A DNA stretch of 64,000 nucleotides, taken from the NCBI RefSeq assembly GCF_026151205.1, contig NC_087078.1, forward strand, positions 13,623,118 through 13,687,117, written 5' to 3'. This document shows, piece after piece, positions 6,101-63,824 of the stretch. Numbering within the stretch: the first letter of the stretch is position 1; every line of letters starts with the position of its first letter. Made by a program: the position numbers and the translations under genes. The stretch comes from Bolinopsis microptera (Eukaryota; Ctenophora; Tentaculata; Lobata; Bolinopsidae). The notes below the pieces were generated by a model, which did not search any database, had not been told where the DNA came from, and worked only from the letters and a program-made list of their open reading frames with translations.

Positions 6101-6483
6101 AGATCAAAAACAGTGGGCTGCTCCTAGACAAAAACAACTTCTTATTCGGGCACAACACGAGTAAAAATCTGGACAGCCGAATAATGGACTACATTCACGG
6201 CAGCTCACCACTCTTTGCGAATATCCAAAAGATCATGGGTGGTGACAGTGGTGAGGCCTGTCGTTTCTGCAACAGCTTCATTGATTCTCCCGTACACCAG
6301 CTCCTATTGTGTCTGGAGGTGCAAGACACCAGTTACCTGCAACTGAAAGAAGAGCTGGGTGGGGCAGACTCACATTCCTATCTAGATGAAGTGTTAACAA
6401 AAAGCAGCACACAAAAAGCATTCATTAGGAGAGTCGAATTTCTTTGGGGACAAAATGATGCTCTCCAGGATTTATCCGACTAG
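3100..6483 (+). pseudogene. LINE ORF2 endonuclease/reverse transcriptase with one in-frame amber
   Basis: One frame of 1128 codons runs from ATG 3100 to 6483, broken only by TAG at 3952-3954. The N-terminal third is an APE-type endonuclease: QINIAK, the QETSSW glutamate, YGDFNARHHDWGD, GGSVIDL and RRGHYPV. After the amber codon comes the RT: YRPISISS, FLDFEKAFDSVH (motif A Asp), GLPQGAVLSPLLF and KFADDG (catalytic FADD). The C-terminus has a CCHC-type knuckle (CRFC-x8-H-x4-C). ORF2 normally nicks target DNA and reverse-transcribes the element RNA. All catalytic motifs survive, so this copy is either recently inactivated or depends on readthrough. The ATG overlaps the ORF1 TGA as ATGA. Confidence 0.85.
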
Positions 6484-36585: not shown

Positions 36586-39500
36586 ATGGCTGACGATTAC
36601 ATGTCGGATAGTTTCCTGGAGCAGGTCTGTGACGTGCGACCTGGTTTGGTGAGGGGGGTGGGAAAGAGAAAACTAGAGGTGCACAAGAGGCAGCTATCCA
36701 ACAAGCGTGTAGGTACACAATATTGTTATTAATAGTATTTTAATATCTAGATACTATATATCATTAATGAGAGTTACCTTATCGGACCTTATTTGGGCAG
36801 ACATTACGTGGAGGTTCTTTCTCTTCAGAGCTCATGGCCGGCCAAATGAAGTTCGACTAAAGGTGTACATAGTTAATCTTTCTGGTTGATCAAGTACTTT
36901 TGCAAATGTAGAATGACCAGATCTTGCTCGTTTGTAACTGTTTTCAATCCAGAATGCAAAAGATCAGTCTAGTTCGAAGAAATTGAATGCTAAAGAAACT
37001 TTGATGAAAGGCCTCGAAACCAACGTTATAAGTGAAGATAACCCTGGATTTAAGATGATGCAGAAAATGGGTTTCAAACAGGGGGTTGGACTCGGGAAGC
37101 AAGGTAAATTGCATTAATTAACAGCGACCCTAAATATCGTATGGTATTTTTGGCGCACATTTACATTTTACACTGGCTTCTGTTATTAACTATTTCCAAT
37201 AATTGTCCAGTTACAGAAACATCACTCTCAATAATTACCGATAGTTCTGGTACACTTTAGATATACCAATAAAATTGATATTGCAATATTATGTTGCTCG
37301 TATAACGCTCACTAATACACAGATTGGTTTACATCGAGAATAATGGTAATCTGTAAATAAAGGTCTAGAAAGTTTGCAGTTTTAGATCTATTAAAGGGTT
37401 TGTCATGCTGATGTTGGCACTGTTATTGACCACAGCATTGTTTGTGATGGTCTCTGCAGACTTTCTTTGTACACTAAGGAATTATTTTGTGCACAGTATA
37501 CACGTACTCTAGACTGGTTTCTATTTTCTGGCGACAAATGGTAAGGTTACACCACTGTATCTGATAGGTTAGAGTAGTTTTCAGAGTCATTGTTTTCTTT
37601 AACTTCAGTCTTCTAGTTCCACAACAAGCCGCGGGATTGTTAGCTAAATTTTAAAGTGTGTACGCACTACGCATTTTACCTCGTGACGCGTAGGCAGCAT
37701 GTAAACACGAATGTGATTAGTCGTTAGGGACGAATACTACTTTCTATGTAGCACAGCAGGATAGTGTGTACTTAACGGTTTATTGTAGGCTTTTGAAGAT
37801 GGCTGAAGAAAGTAACCCATCACTTCAAAATGCCCCAGCGAAATGGGCTTAATATGTCACTGCATGTTTCGAATTTTGATTTCAGTTTTTTTTTAGTGTC
37901 ATGTCCTTGATTGGTGTATATGTGCGGTAAACTTTGAGCATCTCTGATGGCGCTAATCTGAACTCGACTGAGTTCCCTTCATCTGAGCTTAACTAGCCAG
38001 TAGTTAAGCTACCGATGAAGGGAAAAATTACCCATGATCGGGGACAAATATATTAAAATTATCATGTAAAAAGGAACGCGCGATCAAATTTAAATAATGA
38101 AAATACTGAATTTTCATATAAAACGTACTATTTTATTGCGCGCGTGGTAGACTCCATGCTGAACGAAATTCTGTGTTATGAAACTGAACACTCCATTTCC
38201 ACTTTTTAATTTTCCATTTACCCCTCAATCACGAAATAAGGTATTTTAATGTCTACTCTGTATGTTCAGGCGAAGGAAGAGTGGAACCCATAAAGATTGA
38301 ACCCTTCAAGAAGAAGTCCGCTGGACTAGGGCAAGCTGCAGCAAAAGAGGAAGAATGCAGAAAAAGGCTAAAAATGGAGCAAGCACGTTTAGCTGCTTAC
38401 AAAGTAAGTGTTTTTCATCATGCTGTCTTGCCCATGGTTTTTGAACATTAAGAATTAATATTACGCTATCATACATTTTGTGATGCTCTTATTACAATTT
38501 GTCACTGTAAGGCTTTCCAATATCACATCATGTAAAACACGCTGCCACAGCGGAACGAAGCCCAGCTGCTGCAACAGTTCCGAAAGAACAAAAGTCAAGA
38601 AGCAGAGATGAAGCACATGCTGAGTACGGTGAGAAAGTGCCAGAACGTTTGTCGTCAGATGGATGAAAAGTGTGGGATAGTACCGCGAGAGATCTGGTAT
38701 TGGCCTCCACAGAAACCTCAAGAGAATTTGGAGTCTGACGAGGACGAGGACGAGGACGAGGTTAATTAACAGATTATTGACTATTCTTGCTAAAATTTAC
38801 TCTAATATGTAATACGATTACAGAATATATTCTGTGCTGACTGCTGATTCAGTTAAATCAGCAGAATATAATATGTATCGACCTGGTATGGAGGGAGAGG
38901 AGCCAACAGAAGAGAGGAGGGGAGAGGTTGGCTATTTTTGTTTTTGGGTTCAAATGATACAGTCGTTGCCTCACTCAGATTCCGCCCTACAGCTGACACA
39001 TCTAGGATGGACACAAGGCCATCTAGATTGAGAAGAGATAGCACCACATCTGTGGAAAGCCATAGTAGTGAAGCATTCAGAACCCCCTTCACTAGAAGAC
39101 GAATGAACAGTGACCAACAGAGATCCACTGCTCCAAATGATTTTTTAGAAAAACTTATGGAGAACATGAAGCAGGGCTTCAGTCAACAACGAGCAGAGAT
39201 AGGAATTATGAAACAGGGCATAGACACACAGATAGAAGCCCTCTGGAAACAACTGAGCTCCATCAACCAACTCAGCCTTCCCCAACCACCAACATTCCAC
39301 CAGTACCAACTACCCAACCAAATGGTACAACCCCCAACTGCCCCGTGGAACAACGGCCAGAATCAGTGTTCCATCTACTAAATGCGCAGTGTCTATCCCC
39401 TAAAGCCACCAGCACGACAAAGTGGAAAATACCCTTCATTTCCGATACCATTCTCAACAACAAAAATACTTTCGTGCCATTCATGGGGATAACAGAAACG

Positions 39501-42500
39501 TGGCTGAAGAGCTACATTACCGATGCACAATTACAGGTAAAAAACTATTCAGTCTTCAGATCAGATAGAGACCTGAGAAACAATGGAGGTGCATTGTTAT
39601 ACGTTCACAGCTCATATATTGTGTCTGACTACAAAAGTTTTGGCGACAAATTCTGTAATTGTGTAATCCTCAGGATAGAGGAACTGAACTGTGTTACCGC
39701 AACAGTCTATAGACCACCTGACTGCCCGGTGGCTTCGTTCAGATATATATTAGAGCAGATTCAATTATTCATTGACTCAAGACCTGAAGAAAATCAGGAG
39801 CTCTACGTAACAGGAGATTTCAACTTACCCAATATAGATTGGAAAATATTAACTGCAGACAGCTCTCTAGGGAAGAGAGGAACAGAGTCGGCGACCCTTC
39901 TACTTGACTTCATGTCGAAAAATCTTCTCTCACAAATCATTAACCAGCCGACACGTGGTAACAACACCATTGACCTGGTCTTAACCAACCGTGTGCAATA
40001 TGTTTGTGAGACACAGTCCACAGAAACTAGTTTATCTGACCATAATCTTGTGTCCGTAGTTCTAGGCTACGACGCCAGAAGAAATGAAAACTACTATCAC
40101 AATGTGAAGGAAGCAGAGGATTTCACATACTTTAGCCTCAACCTCCACAAAGCAGATCTTGATGCCATAAACAGAAAACTCATAGATGTTGAATGGAACA
40201 CACTTCATAATCTGTGCCCACAAGAAGATGACGGATCGATGTTTGCAGAAATCGTCCGACTGACAACACTACAGATCTGCTATGCCCATACCCCTCTCAA
40301 GGAAACTCCAGCAGCTAATGCCAGGCCCAAAATAAGCCGACCCAGAAGGATACTATACAGAAAAAAGAGAAAACTCAAGGCACGCATCAGATGTCTTAAG
40401 ATATTAAACCCGGACTCCCTCTCCTTACCTACCCTAGAACATAAAGTAAATCTGATGGCTTATGAAATTCAACAAAACATAAGTATGGAGATTAACGGAA
40501 GAGAGCGCAAAGCTGTACAATGCGTTAAGAAAAACCCGAAATATTTCTTCAGCTATGCAAAAAGATTTTCTAAGCTGAAATCAAATATCGGTCCGCTAAG
40601 AAGCAGCTCCACAGGAACACTACAACATGATGCTAAGAAAATGGCGGAGATCCTTCAAGACCAATATTCTTCAGTGTTTAGTGACCCTGACAACGAGAAG
40701 AAAAAAGACACAACCAGCAATATAACATCGCCCTCAGAAAAGTTAACATCATTCAACTTTAGTAAAGAGGACCTCATCACAGCTATTGATGAAATTGATG
40801 CTGACTCGGCAACATCTGATGGGGACATTCCAGCAAGGATACTGAAAGCTTGCAAACAACCGCTTTCAGAAGCCCTGATGATCATTTGGGAGAACTCCTT
40901 CAGAAATGGTCAAGTTCCTTCAGTCTATAAGGAACAATATATCACACCAGTGTTTAAAAAAGGAAACAAAACAGACCCGGGAAATTATAGACCTGTCTCG
41001 TTAACTTCCCATATGATAAAAGTGTTTGAGAGAGTACTAAGAAAGAACATGGTAGAGCACTTGGAGTCGAATCACATATTCTCTAAGAAGCAACACGGCT
41101 TCCGGAAAGGTAGAAGCTGTCTTACACAGTTATTACAACACATGGACTACATCCTAAACAACTACCTAGACAGCTCCGAAACAGACGTGATATACCTTGA
41201 TTATGCTAAAGCCTTCGACAAGGTGGATCATTCCCTACTTCTTAAAAAGGTTAAGTCGTATGGAATACAAGGTAATCTGTACAAATGGATTGAGCAATTC
41301 CTCCTTGATAGGACTCAAACGGTCATTGTCGACGGAAAGCATTCTAGGCCAATGCCGGTTATCAGTGGAGTACCGCAGGGGACTGTACTTGGTCCAATCC
41401 TCTTTCTTCTTTACGTCAACGATCTAGATCAGTACGTGAAAGATTCCAAACTTAGCAGCTTTGCCGATGACACCCGAATAGGCAGAAAAATATCGACGTT
41501 AAACGACTGCAATCTTCTTCAAGAAGATCTAAACAGAATCATACGTTGGTCCGAGGACAACAACATGAAACTGCACGAAAACAAGTTTGAACTTGTTTGC
41601 TATAGAACACCGGCCTCTAAATCACTTTCAGAGGAGCTGCCATTTATGAGTGACATCACAAACTACACCACTCCAAATGGATCAGTCATAGAAAGAAGCC
41701 CATTAGTGCGTGACCTAGGAGTCAACATGTCCGATGATTACTCCTGGACACCACATATCAACATCATGGTTGACAAGGCACGTCAGATGGCATCTTGGGT
41801 TCTTGGAGTATTCAAAGACAGGACAACACCTGTTATGCTCCAGCTCTACAAATCCCTAATAAGGTCCAGAGTGGAGTACTGCTGCCCGCTTTGGAATCCA
41901 AACAAGATCTATGATATCCAGTCTATCGAGAGCATACAACGCCAGTTCACTAGACGAATTCTAGGGCTGAGAGACACCGATTATTGGAATAGACTGAAGG
42001 AACTGAAACTTGCATCACTGCAAAGACGCCGAGAACGCTACACCATCATACATCTGTGGAAAGTTCTCCAGGGTATATGTCCAAATGACCTAGATGTACA
42101 GTTCAGAGAGAATGCCAGACTGGGAGTTAAAGTTATACTCCCTTCTCTCACAAAAAAAGCATCAGCTGCTGCACGCTCCACCTACGACCACTCATTCGCA
42201 GTGAGAGCTGGAAGACTCTGGAATGTTCTCCCCAAAATTGTCAATACTCAAAGGACTTTGACAAGCTTCAAGACATCTCTTGGAAACTTCCTAGACACCC
42301 TTCCAGACAAGCCCCCTACTCCTGGATACAGTGCAGAAAACTCTAACTCGATAATAGACTGGTGCAGTCAAGGAGGTGGTCCGCAGATTGCGTGATGGCC
42401 GTGAAGATGCCTACTTCTAAACCTATCAATAGGTTCAATAGGTAGGTTCACTCGTAAAAACAACAATATAAGATGTTGATTGGCCACAAAGTATTAAGTG

Positions 42501-43191
42501 AGTACGTAATATGTAAACGACCCTTATTGGCGCCCCCCTAAGATGGCCCATTGCCCCCCGGCCCCCCCCCCCCCAGCGGGGCCCTTCGTTACGCCATTGA
42601 AAGTGAGTACGTAATATGTAAACGACCCCTATTCTTAAGTTCCAATCGAGTTTTTCGTGGCTCCACTGGCTCTGTTGTGTTTTCAAACTGCTTAAAATCA
42701 ACAGCCTTGATAACAGTGGTATTCCTTATGAAATAAGAATAATTACAATTAAAGTAATTACAAATTAGCATAACAAGGCATGGCGCCCTGGTAACTTTTT
42801 ATCAGACCTGTTCATTTGCAGGCTAATGCGAATTAAAACACTGATAAACCTCTATCGGGAATTCCAGTAAATCAGGGATCGGATGAACAGTTATATACTG
42901 TATTATCATATCAAATTAAACACTGTCTGATATACAGCTCTCGCATCCGATTTGAATAAACTTGCTAAATCACCACTTCAACAGCAGGAGGAAGAGCAGC
43001 CAGATCCAGAGAATGTCATATTACCGGAACTAGACGCGTATCTGAGATACCAACACAGCTACTGTGTGTGGTGTGGAGTGAAGTACATGCACAGAGAAGA
43101 CTTGATCACCCACTGCCCTGGAGACACTCAACAGGCACACGACCAGGATGATGCCGGGGACTTTGCCGGGGACACAGACTTTGCAGATTGA
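36586..43191 (+). CDS. GPATCH11: GPATCH11 (G-patch and DUF4187 protein), 5 exons, 274 aa
   Basis: Exons 36586-36708, 36953-37103, 38270-38403, 38551-38760 and about 42985-43191. Phases agree; the last acceptor could also be 3 nt later. Start MADDYMSDSFLEQ and DVRPGL match the family N-terminus. The G-patch spans residues about 70-105 (NPGFKMMQKMGFKQG, then GLGKQGEGRVEPI). A charged coiled-coil follows, then PREIWYWPP, an acidic run, and the DUF4187 C-terminus with CVWCGVKY..DLITHCPG, a zinc-binding CxxC..H-x-C type. G-patch proteins commonly activate DEAH helicases; human GPATCH11 is nuclear and linked to splicing. Intron 4 contains a LINE. AATAAA at 43509 may end the transcript. Confidence 0.9.
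38938..39381 (+). CDS. LINE ORF1 C-terminal part, coiled-coil
   Basis: A frame ending at TAA 39379-39381 with a basic start (TPFTRRR), a probable coiled coil (LEKLMENMKQGFSQQRAEIG) and a Pro/Gln-rich end. No zinc finger remains, so I take it as a 5'-truncated ORF1. The ORF2 frame overlaps it. Confidence 0.5.
   Translation: MFLGSNDTVVASLRFRPTADTSRMDTRPSRLRRDSTTSVESHSSEAFRTPFTRRRMNSDQQRSTAPNDFLEKLMENMKQGFSQQRAEIGIMKQGIDTQIEALWKQLSSINQLSLPQPPTFHQYQLPNQMVQPPTAPWNNGQNQCSIY
39345..42395 (+). CDS. LINE ORF2 endonuclease and reverse transcriptase, uninterrupted
   Basis: An open frame of over 1000 codons with no stop. Endonuclease motifs: LLNAQCLS, GITETWL, NNGGALLYV, TVYRPPDCP, VTGDFNLPNIDW, IDLVLTN and LSDHNLV. 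RT motifs: YRPVSLTSHMIKVFERV, KQHGFRKGRSC, YLDYAKAFDKVDH, GVPQGTVLGPILF and FADDTRIG. The C-terminal domain has RRRERYT and FAVRAGRLWNVLP. The frame has no ATG before the first endonuclease motif (first Met at about codon 46 of the segment given), and it is -1 relative to ORF1, so expression would need frameshifting or reinitiation, or the native start was lost. All catalytic residues appear intact. Confidence 0.8.
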   Translation: MEQRPESVFHLLNAQCLSPKATSTTKWKIPFISDTILNNKNTFVPFMGITETWLKSYITDAQLQVKNYSVFRSDRDLRNNGGALLYVHSSYIVSDYKSFGDKFCNCVILRIEELNCVTATVYRPPDCPVASFRYILEQIQLFIDSRPEENQELYVTGDFNLPNIDWKILTADSSLGKRGTESATLLLDFMSKNLLSQIINQPTRGNNTIDLVLTNRVQYVCETQSTETSLSDHNLVSVVLGYDARRNENYYHNVKEAEDFTYFSLNLHKADLDAINRKLIDVEWNTLHNLCPQEDDGSMFAEIVRLTTLQICYAHTPLKETPAANARPKISRPRRILYRKKRKLKARIRCLKILNPDSLSLPTLEHKVNLMAYEIQQNISMEINGRERKAVQCVKKNPKYFFSYAKRFSKLKSNIGPLRSSSTGTLQHDAKKMAEILQDQYSSVFSDPDNEKKKDTTSNITSPSEKLTSFNFSKEDLITAIDEIDADSATSDGDIPARILKACKQPLSEALMIIWENSFRNGQVPSVYKEQYITPVFKKGNKTDPGNYRPVSLTSHMIKVFERVLRKNMVEHLESNHIFSKKQHGFRKGRSCLTQLLQHMDYILNNYLDSSETDVIYLDYAKAFDKVDHSLLLKKVKSYGIQGNLYKWIEQFLLDRTQTVIVDGKHSRPMPVISGVPQGTVLGPILFLLYVNDLDQYVKDSKLSSFADDTRIGRKISTLNDCNLLQEDLNRIIRWSEDNNMKLHENKFELVCYRTPASKSLSEELPFMSDITNYTTPNGSVIERSPLVRDLGVNMSDDYSWTPHINIMVDKARQMASWVLGVFKDRTTPVMLQLYKSLIRSRVEYCCPLWNPNKIYDIQSIESIQRQFTRRILGLRDTDYWNRLKELKLASLQRRRERYTIIHLWKVLQGICPNDLDVQFRENARLGVKVILPSLTKKASAAARSTYDHSFAVRAGRLWNVLPKIVNTQRTLTSFKTSLGNFLDTLPDKPPTPGYSAENSNSIIDWCSQGGGPQIA
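42496..42628. repeat. Direct repeats of a MITE end with G/C-rich core
   Basis: AAGTGAGTACGTAATATGTA plus AACGACCC occurs at 42496-42523 and 42601-42628 in direct orientation. It resembles one terminus of the MITE at 27782-27945. A C14-containing GC block lies between. Confidence 0.55.
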
Positions 43192-48043: not shown

Positions 48044-51000
48044 ATGAATGACCCAGTGAGTATAGTGCTACTAATCTTGTGTGACTTATTTTTCCTGCCA
48101 TGTTGTATGAAATATTTGCTTATCAGTTTGTTATAATACCTTGACTGTATTCCCAGTTTTTTAAACTGCCAATGCAGCACCACCTTATAATAACGTTATA
48201 ACTTGCCTAATTTTTTATTTTTTCCTCCCTTCAACGTCTGCACAATAAGACTAAATCCTCTATCCCCAGGAAAGTGAAGACCTAGCATCGAGTCCAGATC
48301 TCCCGTCAAATATTGCAGTTGTTGGGTCCCCTGATGATGCAGCTAGGAGAACCCAGGAATGGTTAAAGGAGTCTGTAGAGGACACATTCTCTGACAGTGA
48401 TAATGAAACAGAGGAGAGCTTGGTATCTGAGGTAGGTCACAGTTCAGGTTAAATGTTAGCCAGGCGGACAGATGACCCTAAGTTTAACATTGAGTAGTAG
48501 GAGTGTCTATTCTATATGATATGTTAATATTTAATAGTGTAGTAATAATGTATTAAAGTTTTGTTCAGCCAAGTTACTGTGTGGCTCTCAGCTGTGCCGT
48601 GATTATTCATGTTCCTTCAACTCGTTGTAATGTAGATAATAGAAATTATGTTATTATATATTAGTAGTAGTAGTAATGAAGTATGTGGTATGTTGTAATT
48701 TAGTGCCTTGTAATGTAGTAATGTAGATAGTATTTATATATAATTGATACTCTTTCTACTCGTAATGTTAGTATTTAGAAAAACACGTGTCAGGTATTCG
48801 TACTCCATTGTTCTATTCGCTGTAGTCAACCACATTTAAAATGTGCGGTAATACATTAGATTGATGTGAAAGTACATACCGCTGTGAGAACATTGTACTT
48901 CATGCCGTTACTGTCTCACTATACTGCAATTCTGCAATAATAATTTAGCAACATTTTATATGTGCATTGAAGCGTGACTCCCACGAGAAGTTACACTTAC
49001 AGAATATACTTATTACTTAAATAGCACTATATCGATGTGTAACTTTTAGTTTACTGAACATCATTATAACACCGTTATCAGCTGAATCTAGTGAGTGATC
49101 AATGTTACAATAATTTATCAAGTTCTCGTTTGTTGTATTATTGTATCCAAATAGTAATCAATAGGTAAATTATATTAAGAAACTATTAAGAAATAGGTAA
49201 ATAAATTCTAGTATTTGTAACACGATACAAACGTCTATTAAAATGATACATTGATGCGTGACCTAGTATTAAAAAGACAACACAAATATTGTTTTATTTC
49301 TTAAGAAATGATTTAAAAGATTCAAAATGCTATAAATAAATAAATGAATCAATAAATTCTACTCAGGAAAGTAACAATCAAGCTAGATTTTTTGTTATAG
49401 TAGTGTTGAAAATATCAATGATATAATTGAAACACTCAGCTCTGAGTGTATTCAAAGAAATGATAATCGATCGAATCTACTGTGCAGTGTTAGAAAAGCA
49501 CATTAAATTAATACAATAGAACAGTTCAGAGTTTAAACTAAACTTATGACCCAAAGATATACTTTGAATAATCTTAATCTCCTTAGAAACTATTGGATGA
49601 TTTAAATGACAAATTTTACAGGAAGGGGAGGAAAAGAGGGGTCCCAAACGCAAAAAGAAGATTAAACGTGATACAAGTTAGTTTTTAAGCTTTTTGATTC
49701 AATAACTAATCAGTGACCAGCTCCCTTATGTTATGAATTTAAAAGCTTTGTTAGGAGAGATAGAGAGAGAAAGCGGCAAACCAATCTTTTAAAATCTATT
49801 ACTAAATAGTTTCTTAGCAGTTGCTAAATGATTTCTAAACGGTTTCTAAATAATTACCAAATGGCTTCTGAAAGATTTCTACTAAGATTATAAATAGTTA
49901 TAAACAGTTCAACAACTAGTGCCTACTTAATATTTGAATAATTTTCCTGATAACGACGCTTAACCCCATCTACCTGCCCAGAATACATTCCAACCCTAAA
50001 AGACCTGCAACTAGTGGGGGACATCCTGTTCACTGAGCGCCCTACAGTCGGCTACTCAATGGATGAGCAGAAGGAGCTCATAGCCCTAGGTGACGTCACT
50101 AATTTAGCATCCGAAGGACGGGTTTCCGTTTTTGAGAAAGGGGTTCAGTTTGAGAAGAAAGGAAAACCTGGGTAGGCTCATTTTTAAGATCTGTTTTGTG
50201 TGTAACCATTTACTTTGTATAATACAGAGCTTTTCTTCACATGAAGTACCTAAAGTAAGTATGATATTGATGTACATAACCTGTTAATATTGTTATTGAT
50301 ACATGATATGATATTGATACTGTTTGGCACCTTGACAACCGAATAACACCCTCAAATACCGTTATATGAGTCCGCTTTTAAGGTCAAGAAAATTAGTGTA
50401 GCAGATCACGCATTGTTATTTAGTTCCGTAATATCGCTTTAGAACTTTTTTCTTGACAAATCTGTTTAAAATACCAACAAAAGGGACATCAGCACTCTAT
50501 AAATAGAATAATTGTTGTATTTAAGTTGAATTCATACTTTGTAATTTAGACTTTATCCAATAACTGTCAGAATAACTATTCCAAATTAAAGTAACATGCT
50601 CATTGCTCATTCATCTCAGAACTTAGCAACACGTCCCCACATCTAACTCCCACTTCTCACAGACTGGCACTGCAATGTTACCTAGCTTGCATACAAGGGC
50701 TAGACGGACAAGTTGGCAAGTTCCCGCAACTGCCCCAATGTTTGCGGCACATTGCGCGGCTCTACTTTGCAGAGGAGGAGTATGAGAAAGCTGTGCACTT
50801 TGTTCAGGCTGAGAAACTCTACTACGAGACTGCTATTCTAGGTAAATGGTAGAATAGTGTAGATAAGTACATTTCACAGTGTGTGTTTGATTACATGATC
50901 CAATATTGAATGGAATAAAGGCAAAAGGGGTTCAATAAGTTATTGATATCTCTGTGTTAACATAACCATAATAATCACGACAACGATGTTGACAAATTAA

Positions 51001-54000
51001 GCATTATATTTGGTTAATTGTGCTATTGTAAGTAATGTATGGGGCGTTAAACACTATCTATGTTTCTTTAGTATTTTTCTGTTCATTCCCAAAAATCATT
51101 ATTATGAAGAACTTTATACATCTAAAGACCATATTATTGGGGGGGGGGGGGGGGGGGGGGGTTGGGGGCGGGTCACTTTATTATTGGCATCCAAAATGTG
51201 ATGTAGAAAACTCTGGAACTCCTCATCATTAAAAGTGAGAAATTAACAGCTTCAGTGTTTTTAACTTTTTAATAGATGAATCGCACACATGTTACCATGT
51301 AATCATATATGTGTAATATATACAGCACCTGAATAATCAGCTACTAAAGTTGTGAACAAGGAAGTTTGTGAGTTGTGCATAATGATTGGCATGCTTGTGG
51401 TGGCTAATTTCATCTACAACTCTCTCTGTATGCATGCTATATCAGCTCTGTCATACTAAAGGTAAAATAATTATCATTATAATCAGAGATTATAATCTAA
51501 TCATGTCCATAGTATATTCAAATAATTAATGAGTATTGAGGTATACGCAAAGCTATGTAAAACTTCTGTCATTTCTACAAATATTTTTAAACATGCTAAT
51601 TCTTTGAGTGGTTAATTATTAATTAAACTAATCAATTAATCATGATATTCGCTCATTCCATATATAAATTATATATATATATATATATTTCATGACATTA
51701 GGTTGTGAAACGCTTGATCATTTTAATCACTATGCAACTAAATATCAGCTGCTGTCATATTATATTCCTGTAATCAGTTTATAAGGTTCGACCAGGTGAT
51801 AAGAAAATATCACTTAAGAACTGAATTAGGCTCCGAAACTTGACTCTAGGAAGGCTCTCGGTACAGCGTTCACACACAGTATTCCAGTCTATATTATACA
51901 TGATGCCAGTACCGAATAGTACCGAGTCAGTACATTATTACACATTACTACTAATAAATACAATATGTGTACTGACTTTTCTGGAACAATACCTGTCGTA
52001 CAACATGTTAACAATTGCGCGGTACACACAATATGCCACCTTTCATACAGTGTGTGACAGTGAGTTGTCTGTTAACTTAATTACCTTACATCTGCTGTAA
52101 GTCTCGTTCTTACATAGATTTACATTGTAAAGAGTACCTTGATGTGGCTGATATAGATTTGGGTTCAATGGTCGGCTCTCCCCATTATATATTCTGAAGG
52201 GTCGGCTGTCCCCAGAGATTCTCAAGGGTTGGCTTATTCCAAATATTCTCAAGGGTCGGCTCCCTCAAACTATTCTCAAGGGTCGGATCTCCCCAAATAT
52301 TTTCAAGGGTGAGCTGTCCCCAAATATTCTCCAGAGTCGGCTGTCCCCAGATATTCTCAAAGGTCGGCTCTCCCCAGATATTCTGAAGAATCGGCTCTCC
52401 CCATAGGTTCGGGTTCAAGGGTCGGATCTCCCCAGAGATTCTCAAGGGTTGGCTTATTCCAAATATTCTCAAGGGTCAGCTCTCCCCCAAATATTCTCAA
52501 GGGTCGACTCTCCCCCAAATATTCTCAAGGGTCGGCTCCCTCAAACTATTCTCAAGGGTCGGATCTCCCCAAATATTTTCAAGGGTGAGCTGTCCCCAAA
52601 TATTCTCCAGAGTCGGCTGTCCCCAGATATTCTCAAGAGTCGGCTCTCCCCAGATATTCTCAAGAGTCGGCTCTCCCCAAATATTCTTAAGGGGAGATTG
52701 AAAAAAAAAAGAAGAAAAAACTCGCTCATTTCTCTACAACGTCGAAGGGAACGCTATATGACTATATCCTGCTACACATGTGGAAGATCCTCCATGGGTC
52801 CATCAGCAACGATCTGAAGATTAACTTCAAGACCTCGAACTGGCATTAAAGCAGTTGTCCCCTCCCTACGAAGGGGTGTTGCTGCTTACCACCAGAGCCT
52901 CTTATGACAATTCGTTCGCTGTTATTTGCCCACGTCTCTGGAATTGTCTTCCTGCTTACATCAACAGGATGAATTTGAATCCTTCAAAATACAACTCACA
53001 TCCTTGCTCCGGCAAATCCCTGACCAGCCTTCGGTCAAGTGATACACATTCCCTAATACCAACTCCATCCTGGAATGGCTAAAGGATCCTGTTACATCGG
53101 AGCTATGGGGCAGTCAAGATAGTTGATGACCCTGTTGCAGTGCGCTAAACCCAACAAAAGTAACAAAGTAAAATAAGGGTCAGCTTTCCCTAAATATTCT
53201 CAAGGGTTGGCTCTCCCCAAATATTCTCAAGGGTTGGCTCTCTCCAAATATTCTCAAGGGTCGGAACTAATCAATTATTCTCAAGGGTCGGCTCTCCCCA
53301 AATTACCCTCAAGTATTATAGCCGCTCCATTTAAGGAATGATACGAATTATCTGATCAGCAAAGTTTATCCATAGGAGAACAACTTAACCGTTTTTACCA
53401 AAAGATAATTTGATGAATAATATGGCACAAGACCTTTTAAGTTTTTAATCCAATGCAATGATTGGAACTAATCCTGTCATTTATTTACAGCTACCACAGG
53501 CAGAAAGACAGAAGAAGAATCCGATGTTTCAGATGGACCTCAGGATCTAAAGTCTATGATGATAGCTCGAGCTCAGGAATTTGAGCAACTTGCAGACATG
53601 TGTCTCCACAGCAAAAAGTATGCAATCTATTCTTATTTGTAAAGATATGACGATGTTTTGTGTGTTCTGAGCTATTTGTGAGCCAGCAGCTGTGATACTT
53701 GGCTTGCTGCACTGCTCGTGATTTGAGAGTGCACTTGTGTGCTATGGATACAGATTTGCACTCCTATCGATAAAAATATTTAGAATACACAAATTGACAT
53801 GAATTATCCATCAAAGAGCTGAGGAAGCTACTTTTTGTTTTAACCATATCTTCTTGTGAATTCACCATTAAAATCAATTAGTGAGATTACACCCCTTTTC
53901 AGTGTCGGATTAGCTCTGGACTACATTGGGAAGGTTCGTTTTGAATGTTTAAACCTTGTTATTGTAATATATTTAGTTATATCTAATCTAGGTCAGTGTA

Positions 54001-57000
54001 GGTCACTATCGGTAGAACCTTACAAGATATCACGTGCCCATTGGCAAACTACAAGCTTTTGAGTTTTGTTAACGTAACACGCATGGTTTTGGTTGAATAA
54101 AAGAAAGCCGCGCATTTCCATGCAATCGCATGCAGCTGCGCGCGCACATTATATTGGTATACAGCTATATAGCTAGCTAGCACTTCTAGGTAGTTGTGTT
54201 GTGTTGTAGCTACTCAAGGTTCCAGTAGTTGAGGTCCTGTAAAATCGCAATTTCTTGTTTATCATTAAATTTCTATTCTTGAAAACTTCTCCATTTACAG
54301 AACAATTATGTTGAATTTCAAAATGAGTCAGTTGCTTAAATGGGCAATAATTCAATCTCGACAGGCTGCCAAAATCAACGAAGCAGTGTACGGGAAAAAC
54401 GATCACAAAAGTCGACAGAGTTACGAGAAGTTCTCGTACATATACGCGGAAGCCGGCAAACTACAGTACAATGGTGAGTTGTGATTGTAGCTATACTTAC
54501 TTTGCTGGCTTCACTGTAGTTAATCTTACTTTGGTTACTTTGGTTGTGTTTATCCTCGTAGCAGGAAGGGTCATCAGATTTCTGACCACCTCGATGGCGA
54601 GTAGTCTACCAGGGAATTAGACCAGCTGCAGCTATAACCGGAAGTCGGAGGGTTGTCCGGTATCAAAGCAATAAACTTGGACAAACTAACTTTAAACGAC
54701 TCAAACGTAGCTTCAGCTTTAATATTATCAGGCACTTTGTTCCACAGTTTTGGTCCTCTTACAGCAAATGAGCTGTCATAGAGTGTCTGGTTGCTCGAGG
54801 AACTCAACCTAGACAGGGAAGGGATGATTGCTCGGGTACCATGTCTGGATGTTTTTGTGAACCTTATATTGCTGCAATTGGGGACAACATTGTGAAGGAT
54901 CTTCCACATCATCAGAATAGTGTACCGTTCCCTTCTGCGCTGCAGTGACATTAGCTTTAGATGTGAAAGCCTCTCCCAGTAGTTCATATTTTCCAGACCG
55001 CATATACGATCGGTGAATGTTCGCTGGACCCCCTCCAAAAGCTGGATCTCAGTCACCTTAACAGGGTCCCACAGCGGACAACAGTACTCTAGTAGGCTTC
55101 TGACCTTATATAGGGTAGTCATTACGGTCCTATCACGAGTTTTGAAGACACTAAACACCCATGACAGTGTGCTTCTAGCTTTCTTGACCATATTACCGAT
55201 CTGTTTGGACCAGTTCAGATCGCTTGATACCATAACTCCGAGGTCTCTAACGTTCTCAACGGGATGTAGTATTTCCTCGCTGGAGACCTTGTAAAGTAGA
55301 GTTTCCACGTAAAAAGGGAGTTCAGAAAAGGTACTTTTTCTATTGTGGAGATGATTCAGGAGCTCAAACTTCTGTTCGTGGAGCTTCATGTTGTTGCAGC
55401 GTGACCAGTCGAGAATACCGTACAGATATAGATCAGCCTGAAGCAGCAGACAGTCCTCAAAGCAATCGATACGTTTGGAGACCCTAGTATCGTCAGCAAA
55501 GAAGCTTACCTTAGAAGAGGTAACAGCTAGCTCTAGATCGTTAATAAACAAAATGAACAATAGTGGTCCTAACACACTTCCCTGAGGGACACCACTTAGA
55601 ACCCTGGCACTGTCCGAATGAACACCGTTTAGGACTACAACCTGTTCACGGTCAGAGAGAAATGACTGGATCCAGCTTAGAAGTTTGCCGTGAAATCCGT
55701 ATCTCTTTAACTTTAACAAGAGAAGGTCCAAGTCAACTTTGTCAAACGCCTTGGCGAAGTCGAGGTATATGGAGTCTGTGTCTTTCCCCTGAGTAAACCC
55801 TTCAAAGATGTCATCAAAGTGATCGAGCATTTGGGTCAAGCAGCTTCTGTTCGATCTGAAACCATGTTGTTTGTCAGATAACAAATTGTTGGTTTCGAGA
55901 TGCTGAACCATGTGTTTCCTAACCACTCTTTCATAGACTTTGACTACATGTGAGGTCAGAGTAGCCGGTCTGTAGTTAGCAGCATCACACCTGCTACCTT
56001 TCTTGAAAAGCGGTGTGACATATCCAGTCTTGTAGAAAGTTGGGACTATGCCTTTATACATGGACTCAGACCAGAGGAGATGAATCGGAACACTCAAGCT
56101 TGAAGCACATCTTTTAAGGAGAATAGCAGGAATACCATCGGGTCCGGGTGCAGAGTCCAGCTTAATCTCAGATATAGCTTCCACGATGTGGTTAGGTGTG
56201 AGTACCAGTTCTGTATCCCTGCTAGTGAGAGGTGGTTCTGTAAATGTAGGTAGTGACTTATCAGGGCAGTTGGGGTCACTAAAGACAGAACAGAACTGTT
56301 GCTGCAGTATATTAGCTAACTCTTTCCGTTCAGTTACCAGTTTCTTATCACGGTTTAGAAGAGTTGAAATATTGTGCTTAACTTTAGAAAAAGATTTAGC
56401 GTATGAGTAAAAGTATTTAGGATTGACTTTAATTTTATCCACTGCTCTCTTTTCACCTTTATCAAGATGGTGGACTATAGCTTCCTTGATCTCATAGCAA
56501 ATTAATCCAATTTCGTCTTCAAGTTTCTTGATTCGAGCTAGGTCATTGGCACACTTTGCAGCAGAGAGACGGGTTTTAAGTCGTGACTTCTTCCTTCTCA
56601 GCGAATTATAAAGCTTCGGCTGGCCAGTTGGTGGTCGTTTCCGAGGAACATTTTCCAGGCATATATTAAGCACTGTCCGTGTAAACTCTGCGGGAAATTC
56701 TTCAAAAGTGCTTGCGTCTCTCAAGTCCTTCCAATTCACTCTGTTCAGGATCTCAGTAATCGGTTCGAAGTCTGCCCGATTAAAGTCTAGGGCTCGGAAG
56801 CTCATTTCGTCAAGATATGAAGCCTGAGCCTTCTCCATCAGACCAGGGTTAAAGGATAGCAGTACATTAACCATGTCATGATCAGATATTTCTGTTGCTT
56901 CACAAGTTACATCAGATACTAGCCGATCATTGTTACACAAGACGAGGTCTAGTGTACTGTTTCCCCTGGTTGGAACAGTAACCACCTGACTCAGCAGATG

Positions 57001-60000
57001 GGTTGACATGAAGTTTAGCAGGTATTGGGCGGAGAGATTTGAATCAGAGGTCCCACCGCTCATGATGTTTAGTGTTTCCCAGTCAATCTGGGGAAAGTTG
57101 AAATCGCCTGTTATAAAGACGTCGTAGCCACTAGGTGCAAGGTTCTCAATAGCGAATGTAAATCTATCTATTAGGATCAATTAGGATCAATTAGCCCATG
57201 ACATGTGTTACAGAGCCACACAAAACCTGTCGGCGTGTTCATAGCTGACAGGGTCTGATGTAGCTCTTTGTTTCTTTCACAACAATGTGAACCTTTGAAA
57301 CATTTAAAGCAATTGAAAAAAGGCATGACCTCAGGATCATGATCAATCACGTAGTTATCACCGCACTCTCCACACTTTCCCGGCATCAGAGCCATAAAAC
57401 CAAGATAAAGGCGATTGGCAAGAGATGACTTAGTGAAAATCTTAAAATCGTCCTTGTCAGCAAGAGGGGACATCGGTTAACATCGGATAATCTAGTCATT
57501 GATCTTTAATATTTTGTAAATTAGCATTAACATACCAGATTAAGATACCAGAAAGTGGTAAGTCAGAAAATATTTGATATCTTGATTGGGAGATATAGAA
57601 ACTGCAGGGTATAGTGCGTGATGAAACAAATTTGACCAACTGTGTTCGGCTATAAAACGTACATAAAAAGGTGTGAGCCGTGAGAGGTATTTTGAATCCA
57701 GGTCGGGACATTGCATTGGATTTAAGGATATTTGATTTTGGAACATTGGAGATATTACTCAAATCAACATAATTCTCTACTAAATATGCATAAGTTTTTT
57801 GTTTTTGATAATCATGAAATAACCCATCGTTCGTGTTTTGATATAGTTCTTTAATATGTATATATTTGATATCTTGGTTAAGACGAATAGTGATCGCAGG
57901 ATGTAATGCGCGATTATTTCGTTAATTGTTCACCTGTCCAGTATTCGGCGATAAAACTTGCTAAAAATAACGGGAGTGGGCGAAGGGGTCGCTCGAGCGT
58001 TTTGAATCGATGCTTGGGTATGGGATATCAGGATTTCACACGATGCATGTAGCAAACTTCCGGTCCAATCCAAAATTCTGTACACCAAACCAGTACTAAC
58101 CTTTAACTTTCTCGCAACTTGGAAAAACATCTGACGAGAATATGAACTGAGTTGCCTTGTCGCACGTGATCACTGTACTACCTCTGAAGAGATGTTCCTC
58201 GTCCGTACAAGTGAGAGTCAGTACTGTTCCATTATCTATTGGGAAGTTCTGAGGCGCAGTCACTCCAGTCATATTAACGTCTAATCCCGTGCAAACTGAA
58301 ATGTTTAAACGTCAGCTGTGCTGAATACGGGGAGTAATAGTTACATGTTAGACTATAGTACAGACAAATCCTTCTGAAAAATTCGATCTGCTGACACACG
58401 AAGCTTTCAGAGGATTTTTGACGTTTTTGAGTCCCATTAGGTGCCCTTTATGGCTGACCAACTTTTCCAAACTTTTCCACTTGTCTTAAGGCCACTTTTT
58501 GCCACTTTACCACTTTTTACCACCTTTCTTGTTTGTCGAGTATCTTTAGTTGTAAACATCGTAAAAGGTTGCGGATCAATCGAGTGTGTTCATATTATCA
58601 GGAAGAAAAACTTTTGTTCAAACAATTTTTACGTCAGATAATAAGTTAATTGGATAATTATCAATTAACTAATTAGCAAAATTCTAAAAAATTTTTATTG
58701 GCTCAAAATGATCGGAATAGCTTGAAACACGGAGAAAAGTATTTTTTAGAAAAACTTTGAAAATTTTTCACTTACATTTTTTTTTCGAGACTTAGAAAAA
58801 ATTTCGAAAATTCAAAATATTTTTTCCGCCAAAAGTGATCAAACCGCATGAAACACGGAGAAAAATGCCTTTCAAAAAAACTTAATACTTAAATCGCCAA
58901 TATTTGTAGTTGGAGTTCAGTAAATCTCGGCAGATTTTAGTAAACAGGAATTACTAAGTGAAGAGGTCTGAAACTGAAAAACGTTAACCATACGATCGCG
59001 CGGCGATATAAGAGTTTCATAAACTAATTTTCACAGAAACTGCACCAATGGCACAGTCAAGATCGAAACGATAGCCTGCTGTACTGTCATTTTATTGATT
59101 TCAATGATGAATCAGTGGGGTTAAGATAATCACATTTGTAATAAATAAACATCTCTGTACCGTCAATTGTGCTAATCTAAACCAGCCTACCTGTATTACC
59201 AGACCTCTTCTTTTCCTCGACAATCAAACCAAGTTGTTCATATCGCATTTGGTGGGTGATGTAAGTAGTAATACATATCGAGCTGTATTCAATCACAATA
59301 CGACACAATGCAATACGTGTATATTATATTATGGCCCTTAATGAGGTATATGAAACGTTCTATACCGTACACTTCTCGTTACTCCAGTGAGAGGCCCAGT
59401 ATGGAGAGGTTTAACAGTTTAGCACGAAAACGTCTACTTGGCCTCATGGCTCTTTGACAGCTCAAAGAAGGCGAGAAAAGACCAGAAACTAGAAAGCTTA
59501 AATTTTCAACTCCACATTAATCCTGAGCTGATCATCATGGCCCCGAATATCCTACGGGAAGAACCTGTATTTTTACCTCACGACGTCCTGATTTCAAATC
59601 AACACCCTCAATAACATTAACAATCCTTCCTGATCAGGATCTGTCTCTATTAGCAATTTCCAAAATATCCTGACTCTCGTGGAACATTTCACTGAATTAA
59701 TTATTACTGGTTTTTTATTACCCCTTGCCCGTCATTCGTATCTACATCTTACCCTTGCCAGTATGTTACCCTTGCTGATTTTACGTTTAGCCGACCCTGA
59801 CATATGGGGGTGATTTGAGGTAACCACCGATCCAGCATAGTAAATGAAGCGGTATGCAGAACAATACAAAACAAGTCACAGTTGATGTTGGAAGGTGTAT
59901 TTACACTTGCTTCCTGGACCTGGCTGTTCCTTAGTTTCCCTGATCTGTTCTTGCCTTCTTCGAACTGTAAATGAGCCATGAGGCCAAGTATACGTTTTCG

Positions 60001-63000
60001 TGATAAACTTTAAAACGTCTCTATACCGGGTTTCTCACGGTATAAAGCGTTACATAAACCTCATTAGTCATTAAGAGCCATATAATATACACGTATTGTG
60101 TCGTAGTCTGATTGAATACAGCTCGATATGTATTAGTTTCAATACTTTCAACACTATACTATATAACAAATAATTTTAATGACAGGATGGATTACTGAGG
60201 GCACTGTGTTAAGGTGATTTAAGTGGGTCCCAACTCCCACCGACCATTCTTCTTTGTGTTATGAATACTTGCTTCATCATCTCCTTTCAATAAAAATCAC
60301 GGTGTCTTTATTGACTAAGCGCATTACTACTTACATCACCCACCAACTGCGATATGAACAACTTGGTTTGATTGTCGAGGAAAAGAAGAGGTCTGGTAAT
60401 ACAGGTAGGCTGGTTTAGATTAGCACAATTGACGGTACAGAGATGTTTATTTATTACAAATGTGATTATCTTAACCCCACTGATTCATCATTGAAATCAA
60501 TAAAATGACAGTACAGCAGGCTATCGTTTCGATCTTGACTGTGCCATTGGTGCAGTTTCTATGAAAATTAGTTTATGAAACTCTTATATCGCCGCGCGAT
60601 CGTATGGTTAACGTTTTTCAGTTTCAGACCTCTTCACTTAGTAATTCCTGATTACTAAAATCTGCCGAGATTTACTGAACTCCAACTACAAATATTGGCG
60701 ATTTAAGTATTCTTGAAACGAAAAATTCACTAAGTTTTTTTGAAAGGCATTTTTCTCCGTGTTTCATGCGGTTTGATCACATTTGACGGAAAAAATATTT
60801 TGAATTTTCGAAATTTTTTTCTCAAGTCTCGAAAAAAAACGTAAGTGAAAAATTTTCAAAGTTTTTCTAAAAAATACTTTTCTCCGTGTTTCAAGCTATT
60901 CCGATCATTTTAAGCCAATAAAAATTTTTTAGAATTTTGCTAATTAGTTAATTGATAATTATCCAATTAACTTATTATCTGACGTAAAAATTGTTTGAAC
61001 AAAAGTTTTTCTTCCTGATAATATGAACACACTCGATTGATCCGCAACCTTTTACGATGTTCACAACTAAAGATATTCGACAAACAAGAAAGGTGGTAAA
61101 AAGTGGTAAAGTGGCAAAAAGTGGCCTTAAGACAAGTGGAAAAGTTTGGAAAAGTTGGTCAGCCATAAAGGGCACCTAATGGGACTCAAAAACGTCAAAA
61201 ATCCTCTGAAAGCTTCGTGTGTCAGCAAATCGATTTTTTCAGACGGATTTGTCTGTACTACTAGGAAACCTGTTGAGTTAAAGAACAAGTCATAAGTTTA
61301 ACAATTAGATTTTTACTATATCTGCAGTCATCCTCCGAGGGTCCAGTGTCCGAAACTGTGTACTCCGGGCATTTGCAGCCATCCTCCGAGGATCCAGCAG
61401 CTGATATTTTGTTATCACTACATTTGCTGCATCCAAGTGCTCCACTCTCACTGTACGTGTTTTCTTGACACTTTTCACATCCACTGTCAGCCAAATACCG
61501 TCCAGCTCTGCAAGGAACTGAAATATTTAGTCGGGGGAGGGGGAGGATGAGCATTTCTTTCGAAATTCATATGATTACAGCGGTTAATTATAATCACGCT
61601 ATAGATATGATATACGAAACTATTATCTATTTTATTCTCACCCATGGCTCTAAATCTGTCGGTAGCTGTGTCCGTATCTTCAATTTTCAGTCTTACCACA
61701 GGTCTTTTCCATATATCCTGATCACATTCATCTAGCTCTATCTCAAGCAGAGGCACTAAACCCATTTCATCTTGCACTGAAATCTTTAGTTTCGATGTTT
61801 TCAGATCTTTGCTGAAGGACCAAACTTTGGGTTGATGTAGATTTGGGTTTTGATTTCTCTCTATTAATTTACCCTGACAATTCCTAATCGTTATATTGTA
61901 CGAGCCAAGCGTTGCCATCAAAAGTTCCAACCCACCAGCCTTCTGCCTTCCTTCTCCACTGAACTCTAAAGAAATTCTTTCTCCACTCCCCATCGTACTT
62001 TTAACTTCTATCTGGAAAACAGATCTGTCCTCTTCAAACTCAATGTGTTGATTTGCTTTTGGGACCCTCGTGTGCCAACCTGATTGCATTTTCTTTATAA
62101 CAACCAGTCAAGCAAAGCATGAACATTTGTATATAAAGATACAATCCTAAATCAGTCCCTAACAAACTTAGCGCGAGTCTGAAAGGCTGTTGGAAGCACA
62201 GAGTGCTCCATATTTTGTTTTATCAATAAACCTTTCTTTTCATTTTCTTTTTTTTTTAAATTTGTTTACTGCGTGCAAATTTCTGTTTCAGATTTGATCT
62301 ATTTATGATATGCATTTATGATTATGTAATAAATATTACATTCGTAAACATTGACTGGTTTATAAACCAGTCCCAAAAAAACACATTTTTCCAATTTGAA
62401 ATGAATTAATCAAATGAAAGCAAATAAATAAGTTTATTTAACCTGTAGCTGAGATGAGAAAGAGAAGTGCTGATAATATCTCCAATTTCGTTACAACTGA
62501 TTTCATTTCTAACACCTATGTAGAGTATCCATCAATAATTATGGGGATTGGGACGTTGGTTAAAACGATTACAAGGATTTTTCGCGAAACCTATCCCTAC
62601 TCTTAGTTATTAAGCGGTAGGGACTCGGTCTGCTAAGAATTCGGTCCGCATTCCTCAAAAATTAACAACATTTTCAAAAATACAATTCATCCTCACAAAT
62701 ATAATTCATCTGCCCAGTTTTATGGCTGATCAGATCGCAGTCATAAGCTATTTCTAATACTTAAACGGAAAATGACATAACAAATAAAACTCGTGTGCTT
62801 TGTTCAAGTTCTAGTTCTAATTCAAATTCTTATTCCAAGTGCCGAGATTATAAATTCATCAGCCAACGCACCCTTTGATTAGTAAACCGAAATCAAACTC
62901 GGTGATAGTCTACAAAGAAATGGCTTGTGATTAGGAGTAAGATAAAAGGCAGCTGCTTAGTGCTTACTAATCACGTACTTGGACCTCAGGACCTGACTTA

Positions 63001-63824
63001 GCTCTAGAATTATTTTAAGTTTATTAGTATTAAATTATGCTAGGACCCCCAAGTTGAGTCTAGAATTCAAGGTTAGGATTTTATATCATTAGTTCATAAT
63101 TAGCTTACCAAAATCGGAAATTATCCAGCCTGATAAAATTATAATTATGACTTCGAATGAGGGGCATCCTGAGGAGACTGGACGTTTTTAGTAACTTTAG
63201 ATTGTGAACATTTGCTGCATAACCAACATCATAGACTATTATCATCCGAATTATTTCTGTTTTACTTATAATTCCCGAGGAGGACGCTTTATTTTTAATG
63301 AGCTAACTAACGATTAGTGGATCATTTGACCGTTTAATTAATTTTTTTATCAATGACGTTTTTAAGATGAAACTTAACACGCAGTAAAGATGTTTAATTA
63401 ATGCATAATGCTCAGGTTTAGCCTGTCTGTGTGACGCTTTGACTAAAATGATTATGAAAGGCGTAATGCAGTGGATGATATTATTATTATTTAATATAAT
63501 AAACCTTATAATAAACCTTTAAATAACGGATTGATCCATTTAATTCTCGAACTAATATTTTGATGGTTAGGGGTCGTTCACATATTACGTAATCAGCTGA
63601 GGGGGGGGGGGGGGGTCCAAATGATTACGCTAATGTGTTTTTGACACAATAGCTATGTGTAAAACTGATTACAGAGGGGGGAGGGGAAGGGGTTGATTAC
63701 GTAATATGTGAACGGTCACGGTCCCTTAATGTGCATATTTTTTCAGATGCACTGAAGAGGTTTCAAAGAAAGCAATCCCAAAGCAATATGAAAGTGTTGG
63801 AGAGATCGGAACCACCTATTCAAG
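48044..63824 (+). CDS. CNST: Consortin-like TPR protein, 5' part (continues beyond window)
   Basis: Exons 48044-48055, 48270-48431, 49622-49676, 49982-50171, 50663-50841, 53491-53617, 53903-53933, 54365-54473 and 63747-63824. All phases join and all ends are GT-AG; 943 coding nt are visible. The tiny first exon (MNDP) rests on an in-frame upstream stop and a GTGAGT donor. The core LPQCLRHIARLYFAEEEYEKA, VQAEKLYYE and EQLADMCL matches the consortin N-terminal domain. The following helices (EKFSYIYAEAGKLQYNDALK) look TPR-like. A lysine-rich stretch (KRKKKIKRD) precedes them. Vertebrate consortin is a trans-Golgi cargo receptor for connexins; the C-terminal membrane segment would lie outside the window. 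The 31-nt exon is required for frame. Confidence 0.65.
51127..51165. repeat. Poly-G tract
   Basis: A run of about 24 G in the + strand within intron 5 of the consortin-like gene, possibly able to form a quadruplex. ORFs read through it are artefacts. Confidence 0.6.
52145..53315. repeat. About 27-bp minisatellite interrupted by a LINE 3' end
   Basis: Units like AAGGGTCGGCTCTCCCCAAA plus TATTCTC run from about 52160 to 52690 (roughly 20 units) and resume from about 53175 to 53310 (about five). A longer-period copy is visible: the block near 52210-52350 recurs near 52440-52610. Between the two arrays lies a LINE fragment. All is in intron 5 of the consortin-like gene. Confidence 0.75.
52700..53170 (+). 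pseudogene. Family B-like LINE ORF2 3' fragment
   Basis: The + strand encodes SLQRRRERYMTI, HMWKILHGSI, VVPSLRRGVAAYH and YDNSFAV..PRLWNCLPAYI in more than one frame, equal to the C-terminal domain of the family B LINEs. It ends in AAGTAACAAAGTAA, a tail also seen for the family B copy whose 3' end is near 54560. Confidence 0.65.
54574..57180 (-). pseudogene. LINE ORF2 lacking the endonuclease N-terminus
   Basis: 868 codons without a stop, but no ATG at the beginning: it opens at TTG inside the endonuclease (DVFITGDFNFPQIDW). Later endonuclease motifs (STLDLVLCN, ISDHDMV) are followed by RT motifs YRPATLTSHVVKVYERV, KQHGFRSNRSC, YLDFAKAFDKVD, GVPQGSVLGPLLF and FADDTRVS. The C-terminal domain ends with FAVRGPKLWNKVP. 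The RT looks intact. The missing roughly 120 N-terminal residues hold part of the nuclease active site, so this copy should not be able to retrotranspose. Confidence 0.8.
57177..57473 (-). pseudogene. LINE ORF1 zinc-finger fragment
   Basis: 98 codons from ATG to TGA with Cys/His pairs (CGECGDN, FNCFKCFKGSHCCERN, WLCNTC) in PHD/RING-like spacing, similar in kind to the finger in the family A ORF1. The reading frame runs straight into the truncated ORF2 across a TTAGGATCAA direct repeat (57171-57190). The junction is a deletion, not a natural ORF1 end. Confidence 0.6.
57481..58095. repeat. Diverged tandem duplication of about 300 bp
   Basis: 57570-57720 (GATATCTTGATTGGGAGATA, then GTATAGTGCGTGATG and TATAAAACGTACATAAAA) corresponds to about 57868-58025 (GATATCTTGGTTAAG, ATGTAATGCGCGATT, GATAAAACTTGCTAAAA). 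The copies are old and non-coding. The 3' UTR of the nested secreted-protein gene would lie here. Confidence 0.5.
58096..62506 (-). CDS. Nested antisense gene: secreted Cys-rich and sushi-domain protein, 300 aa
   Basis: Minus-strand exons 62506-62443, 62079-61642, 61517-61317 and 58295-58096. All introns are phase 1 and GT-AG, giving 300 aa. Exon 1 is a signal peptide (KLEILSALLFLISATG). Exon 2 (about 146 aa) has beta-rich segments (GSYNITIRNCQG, KLKISVQDEMGLVPLLEIEL) and no family I recognise. Exon 3 is a cysteine-rich repeat of the GCC2/GCC3-ephrin-receptor kind (GCEKCQENTYSESGALGCSK...). Exon 4 is a sushi/CCP domain with four cysteines (ICTGL, LTCTD, ITCDK, PSCEK), though the usual Trp is replaced. 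It ends KVKG-TAG; that codon overlaps a GTTAGT donor, so more exons are possible. Likely extracellular. It lies wholly inside an intron of the consortin-like gene. Confidence 0.65.
58358..61261. mobile_element. 2.9-kb foldback with roughly 1.1-kb inverted arms
   Basis: Left arm about 58358-59500 and right arm about 59930-61261 are inverted near-copies, including a 66-codon frame that reads almost identically in both arms (58441-58641 + and 60975-61175 -). Outer ends begin AGTACAGACAAATCC. CTA may be a short target duplication. The unique centre (59500-59930) shows no transposase. It fills almost the whole 3.0-kb intron between exons 3 and 4 of the nested gene. Confidence 0.75.
62507..63569. 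other. Upstream of the nested gene; intronic for the consortin-like gene
   Basis: AT-rich, no exon recognised. It should contain the promoter of the nested minus-strand gene, but no clear core element is visible. Confidence 0.35.
63570..63716. mobile_element. MITE with TCGTTCACATATTACGTAAT ends, copy 2
   Basis: Same design as 27782-27945: inverted ends, a G15 tract next to the left end, core ATTACGCTA..CTATGTGTAAAACTGATTAC, a second G-rich tract and the inverse terminus. It ends about 30 bp upstream of the last visible exon of the consortin-like gene (63747). Confidence 0.65.

Follow-up and report, generated by a model that had tools for sequence, protein, structure and literature searches.

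We analysed a stretch of 64,000 nt from Bolinopsis microptera (NC_087078.1, positions 13,623,118–13,687,117), called the window below, whose own positions serve as coordinates, and in it a minus-strand gene with four recognised exons. Probably the locus codes for all or the 5′ part of a secreted modular protein that is a divergent member of a hypervariable ctenophore family of recognition proteins, a reading to which we give a probability of about 0.6. The domain coded by exon 2 (∼146 amino acids, aa) is named X in this analysis. Members of its family are homologous and present in high copy number, they share a common set of modules, and a young subfamily among them is under diversifying selection. 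On sequence comparison the window gene is a divergent single-copy member of this very large, apparently undescribed family, which is invisible from one window. The exons, from sequence reading, are:

62506–62443, minus strand: exon 1, start codon and predicted signal peptide MKSVVTKLEILSALLFLISATG with a hydrophobic core in the sequence; phase-1 donor ACAG/GTTAAA
62079–61642, minus strand: exon 2, X domain, ∼146 aa, phase 1-1; from leave-one-out profile and alignments
61517–61317, minus strand: exon 3, Cys-rich module of GCC2/GCC3 – Ephrin_rec-like type, phase 1-1; from leave-one-out profile, with weak Pfam matches
58295–58101, minus strand: exon 4, divergent sushi/CCP with 4 Cys and no Trp, phase 1-1; from leave-one-out profile; ends at the donor AAAG/GTTAGT

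All junctions of the gene are phase 1 with GT/AG sites, and the spliced frame runs from the signal peptide through X and the Cys-rich module to the divergent sushi. For the leave-one-out profiles the window copy was removed from each profile before scoring. Exon 2 then scored E = 1.9e-16 (63 bits) against the X profile, exon 4 scored E = 4.1e-12 against the relatives' sushi exons, and exon 3 scored E = 5e-4 to 4e-3 against the relatives' Cys-rich module; thus exons 2, 3 and 4 are not chance open reading frames (ORFs). Exon 1 is supported by the relatives at the X loci L040, L041, L043 and L045, where ORFs with a Met and a hydrophobic stretch lie upstream of X. Coordinates, phases, splice sites and homology agree with the four phase-1 exons proposed in an earlier, sequence-only reading of this DNA, and its layout of one module per exon is true for the window gene. 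Of the family's cysteines, exon 2 keeps the first and third, and it also retains the motifs 'KVW' and 'DTA.D.(Y/F)R'; the gene has the framework of the family, namely a single phase 1-1 X exon with W..V / LEIKT.S.LGS / Y.I..C / KVWRI / DTASD.YR, and sushi and/or GCC2/3-like exons joined downstream of X. The sushi and GCC2/GCC3 modules of the earlier reading find support in the relatives' profiles and not in Pfam alone: exon 4 by itself gave no match to Pfam sushi (PF00084), the Trp of the sushi pattern being absent and the four Cys present, and both Pfam matches of exon 3 were below cut-off (ELAPOR1 TNFR-like, E = 7e-4; Ephrin_rec_like, E ∼ 1). One of the relatives' sushi exons reaches Pfam sushi at E = 2.4e-8. 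As judged from these profiles, the homology of exons 3 and 4 to known modules runs via the relatives, with Pfam weak or silent.

The genome comprises 264.65 Mb, nearly all of it in 13 large contigs. With the window X copy as query it gave 95 matches at E ≤ 1, and a consensus query gave 475 X candidates, 150 of which were scored and listed; all 150 had E < 1e-24, they lie on every large contig, and the copy number is stated as at least 150. Most copies are one open frame of ∼150–200 aa in a single exon, and W2, S32, C68, W87 and C119 are invariant in A1. Searches of X members against Pfam, NCBIfam and PDB gave no match, in line with the earlier description of the exon-2 domain as unrecognised, and no description of the family was found in the literature among open-licence papers. 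Methyltransf_FA (PF12248, FAMeT) was considered for X on account of a similar layout and is unsupported, X members being without a Pfam match; a genome-wide search for the Methyltransf_FA family gave no match anywhere, but its controls gave none either. In the young subfamily, copies on different contigs have introns at 80–90% DNA identity. These shared introns prompted us to consider a transposon-driven spread of X, but the copies showed no element ends in common. At some X loci tandem duplication is evident (at L050, 1.9 kb at 98.7%).

Neighbouring exons were read at sampled X copies only, and TSP1 and F5/8C-like modules were called by eye. In these copies one to three X exons are followed by modules drawn from a common kit of sushi, TSP1, F5/8C-like and GCC2/3-like units. 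The layout closest to the window gene among them is that of L040 (same contig, 6.94 Mb), which has X, a long GCC2/3-like array, a Cys-rich module and at least seven sushi, and whose sushi exons are resembled by exon 4; L039 has X, sushi, a Cys-rich module and sushi, L041 has three X, an F5/8C-like module, four TSP1 and sushi, and L045 has X and sushi. Because joined modules recur at the sampled X copies, the architecture of the window gene is a theme of the family. The combination, which the earlier reading did not recognise, is thus not peculiar to this gene: X copies elsewhere in the genome also precede sushi and/or GCC2/3-like exons. As a separate observation, the array at L040:2834–4177 (C7 ∼6.941 Mb) is a single exon in which a recent expansion has left ∼30 Cys-rich GCC2/3-like repeats that are nearly identical.

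Selection was studied in 37 copies of the young X subfamily (clade A); the window copy, without a close paralogue, lies outside it. Across these copies 23 codons have an entropy of at least 2 bits and are termed hypervariable. They include positions 30, 32, 34, 36 / 47, 49, 51, 53 / 57, 59, 61, and many of the codons between them are nearly invariant, silent sites included. The proportion of nonsynonymous differences (pN) at hypervariable codons is 0.55 against 0.28 for synonymous ones (pS); the remaining codons have nonsynonymous and synonymous divergences (dN and dS) of 0.106 and 0.128, and the median divergence of the upstream intron is 0.09. Nei–Gojobori counts on 18 disjoint, independent pairs gave a dN/dS of 1.24 for the whole exon (p = 0.006) and of 1.88 for the hypervariable codons (p = 1.3e-5). 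When codons were picked on half of the pairs and tested on the other half, the latter ratio had a median of 1.96 (range 1.50–2.78). Of three putative strand blocks, the alternation of positions reaches significance in two (p = 0.027 and 0.008) and not in the third (p = 0.11). This alternation suggests the exposed faces of beta strands, and the diversifying selection indicated by these ratios in clade A supports a function as secreted recognition molecules.

X would then be a binding domain resembling a beta-sandwich and would touch variable ligands through the exposed residues of its strands, with the sushi and Cys-rich GCC2/3 modules as stalk or effector-binding parts, and the family may act outside the cell as a recognition repertoire for microbes, prey, gametes or non-self. 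The window gene would represent a branch that is older, has been amplified less and binds a fixed ligand; because it is single-copy and divergent, we infer its own role from homology only. Recognition outside the cell, as the sequence-only reading had suggested, is probable for such a secreted modular protein. A wider proposal is that this ctenophore has an undescribed, germline-encoded repertoire of several hundred secreted recognition proteins that share a new domain, the exposed residues on its strands diversifying under selection. The repertoire would have arisen independently as a counterpart of the hypervariable repertoires used in immunity or self-recognition, with the window gene as an old divergent branch; we hold this tentatively, at a little below even chances. 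The module set of sushi, GCC2/3, TSP1 and F5/8C-like is also typical of matrix proteins, and the family might instead comprise extracellular-matrix or prey-capture adhesives (mesoglea, mucus or colloblast glue), its diversity reflecting ecological adaptation of binding surfaces, not immunity or self-recognition. We consider this unlikely, because a within-genome diversification limited to alternating positions fits recognition conflict better than structural adhesives.

The 3′ end bears on whether these four exons are the whole gene. Two transposons lie beside or within this part:

54574–57476, minus strand: LINE-type (long interspersed nuclear element) retrotransposon, 868-aa open frame, reverse transcriptase-like; ORFs by eye
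58356–61260 (about), no strand assigned: long-inverted-repeat transposon of ∼2.9 kb, filling most of intron 3; inverted arms in blocks of 429 + 89 + 389 nt

Exon 4 is 195 nt long (2+193), hence symmetric phase 1-1, and terminates at AAAG/GTTAGT. The stop codon assigned in the sequence-only reading (GGT TAG, 58096–58098) overlaps this putative donor and is formed by reading past exon 4; sushi exons of relatives likewise meet in-frame terminations a few residues beyond their donors. Since the TAG lies in a probable donor and exon 4 is symmetric, the description of the gene as complete is unsupported, and the four exons are probably not the whole gene and possibly the 5′ part of a longer one. That a complete four-exon gene of unique architecture ends at this TAG is distinctly unlikely: the in-frame TAG does follow exon 4 directly, and the window showed no additional sushi exon downstream of it, but the donor overlapped by the TAG is a good one, the exon is symmetric, and the module combination recurs in the genome. 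Another exon could be concealed or shifted by the LINE-type element, which starts within ∼0.6 kb on the 3′ side of exon 4. The arms of the other transposon are 98–99% complementary, with a 3-bp TAG duplication (by eye), and one arm has at least 40 full-length places at 97–100% identity among the matches scored (1392 first-look candidates). Thus its insertion into intron 3 is young, and intron 3 is long only because of it.

Several points weigh against the window gene being a divergent member of a family of recognition proteins. Its X copy is only ∼20–27% identical to relatives, is single-copy without a close paralogue, and has lost the second family cysteine (CN motif). Gene conversion between copies could inflate pairwise Nei–Gojobori dN/dS, and the hypervariable codons show elevated synonymous change too. 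Moreover, blocks were assigned to putative strands from the alternation only, and a single-sequence AlphaFold2 model of exon 2 was unusable (predicted local distance difference test score, pLDDT, 39). The lost cysteine and missing paralogue, an exon 4 that stops at a donor with no recognised next exon, and the transposons in intron 3 and just 3′ would also fit a functionless decaying fragment, namely a duplicate of the 5′ portion of a longer gene, such as one of the L040 type, cut short by the LINE and the inverted-repeat transposon. We regard this as improbable, though to be taken seriously: no stop interrupts any of the four frames, the splice sites and phases are intact and the cysteine patterns of the modules are kept, whereas a pseudogene this diverged would be expected to have stops.

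The gene lies antisense in an intron of a consortin-like host gene, of which two parts were placed:

50595–50849, plus strand: host-gene exon region with Consortin_N (PF22883, E = 3.5e-17, 62.5 bits vs cut-off 27.7)
63743–63822, plus strand: probable next host exon, acceptor TTTTTTCAG, donor AAG/GTTAGA; by eye

The host intron extends from ∼54.47 to 63.74 kb (9.3 kb, bounds by eye), and the antisense nesting given in the earlier reading holds, with Consortin_N above cut-off and the intron bounds set by eye. In Hormiphora, 2357 nested intronic genes occur in 1654 hosts (PMC8527503). Nested genes being common in ctenophores, the nesting of the window gene is ordinary, and its location in the consortin intron would be incidental. 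Elsewhere in the window, LINE-type long open frames, apparently recent, lie at 39141–42392, 3955–6480 and 10202–12763, besides that at 54574–57476; a DUF4187 match (42931–43188, plus strand, E = 5e-16) upstream of the consortin-like exons may end a neighbouring gene, and an imperfect short tandem repeat array at 52152–52820, open in several frames, lies apparently within a host-gene intron. In the wider genome, berovin-like photoproteins are present as ∼50 near-full-length open frames with 85–90% identity to the berovin query (matched to PDB 4mn0), which marks the genome as that of a ctenophore; a COX1 search gave no match. The photoprotein genes form tandem arrays at C5:17012652–17026413, C13:11082373–11094352, C1:21999334–22006938 and C3:3415412–3427375, and one run has 15 identically scoring copies at a spacing of ∼940 bp.

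Ctenophores have been proposed as the sister group of all other animals. To our knowledge several of the standard immune receptors of animals are absent from them, and work surveying their immunity has relied on known Pfam domains. Proteins of the SVEP1 / ELAPOR1 type combine sushi and GCC2/GCC3 (Ephrin_rec-like) modules on phase-1 exons and are conserved and low-copy. The X family has like modules and phase-1 exons, whereas SVEP1 / ELAPOR1-type proteins have no X domain and the X family is hypervariable. The system described in PMC2632668 and PMC4757023 likewise consists of secreted proteins of several domains, in which a diversified recognition domain is joined to other binding modules; compared with that system, X has far more copies, and no relation of X to V domains was detected. 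Sea urchin 185/333 (PMC1831783) is also a highly diversified multigene family and is immune-associated, but its sequence is unrelated and its diversity lies in element patterns, in contrast to alternating hypervariable codons on conserved strands in X. In Mnemiopsis, a survey of 20 Pfam domains described SRCR, C-type lectin and NACHT expansions in the immune repertoire (PMC11797021), which resemble X in being putative recognition genes greatly expanded in a ctenophore, some of them carrying sushi domains; X was not detectable in that survey because it belongs to no Pfam family. X can now be annotated as a new domain in ctenophore genomes, and, if the proposed role is true, the family would be a direct candidate for the means by which a comb jelly tells apart microbes, prey or other individuals.
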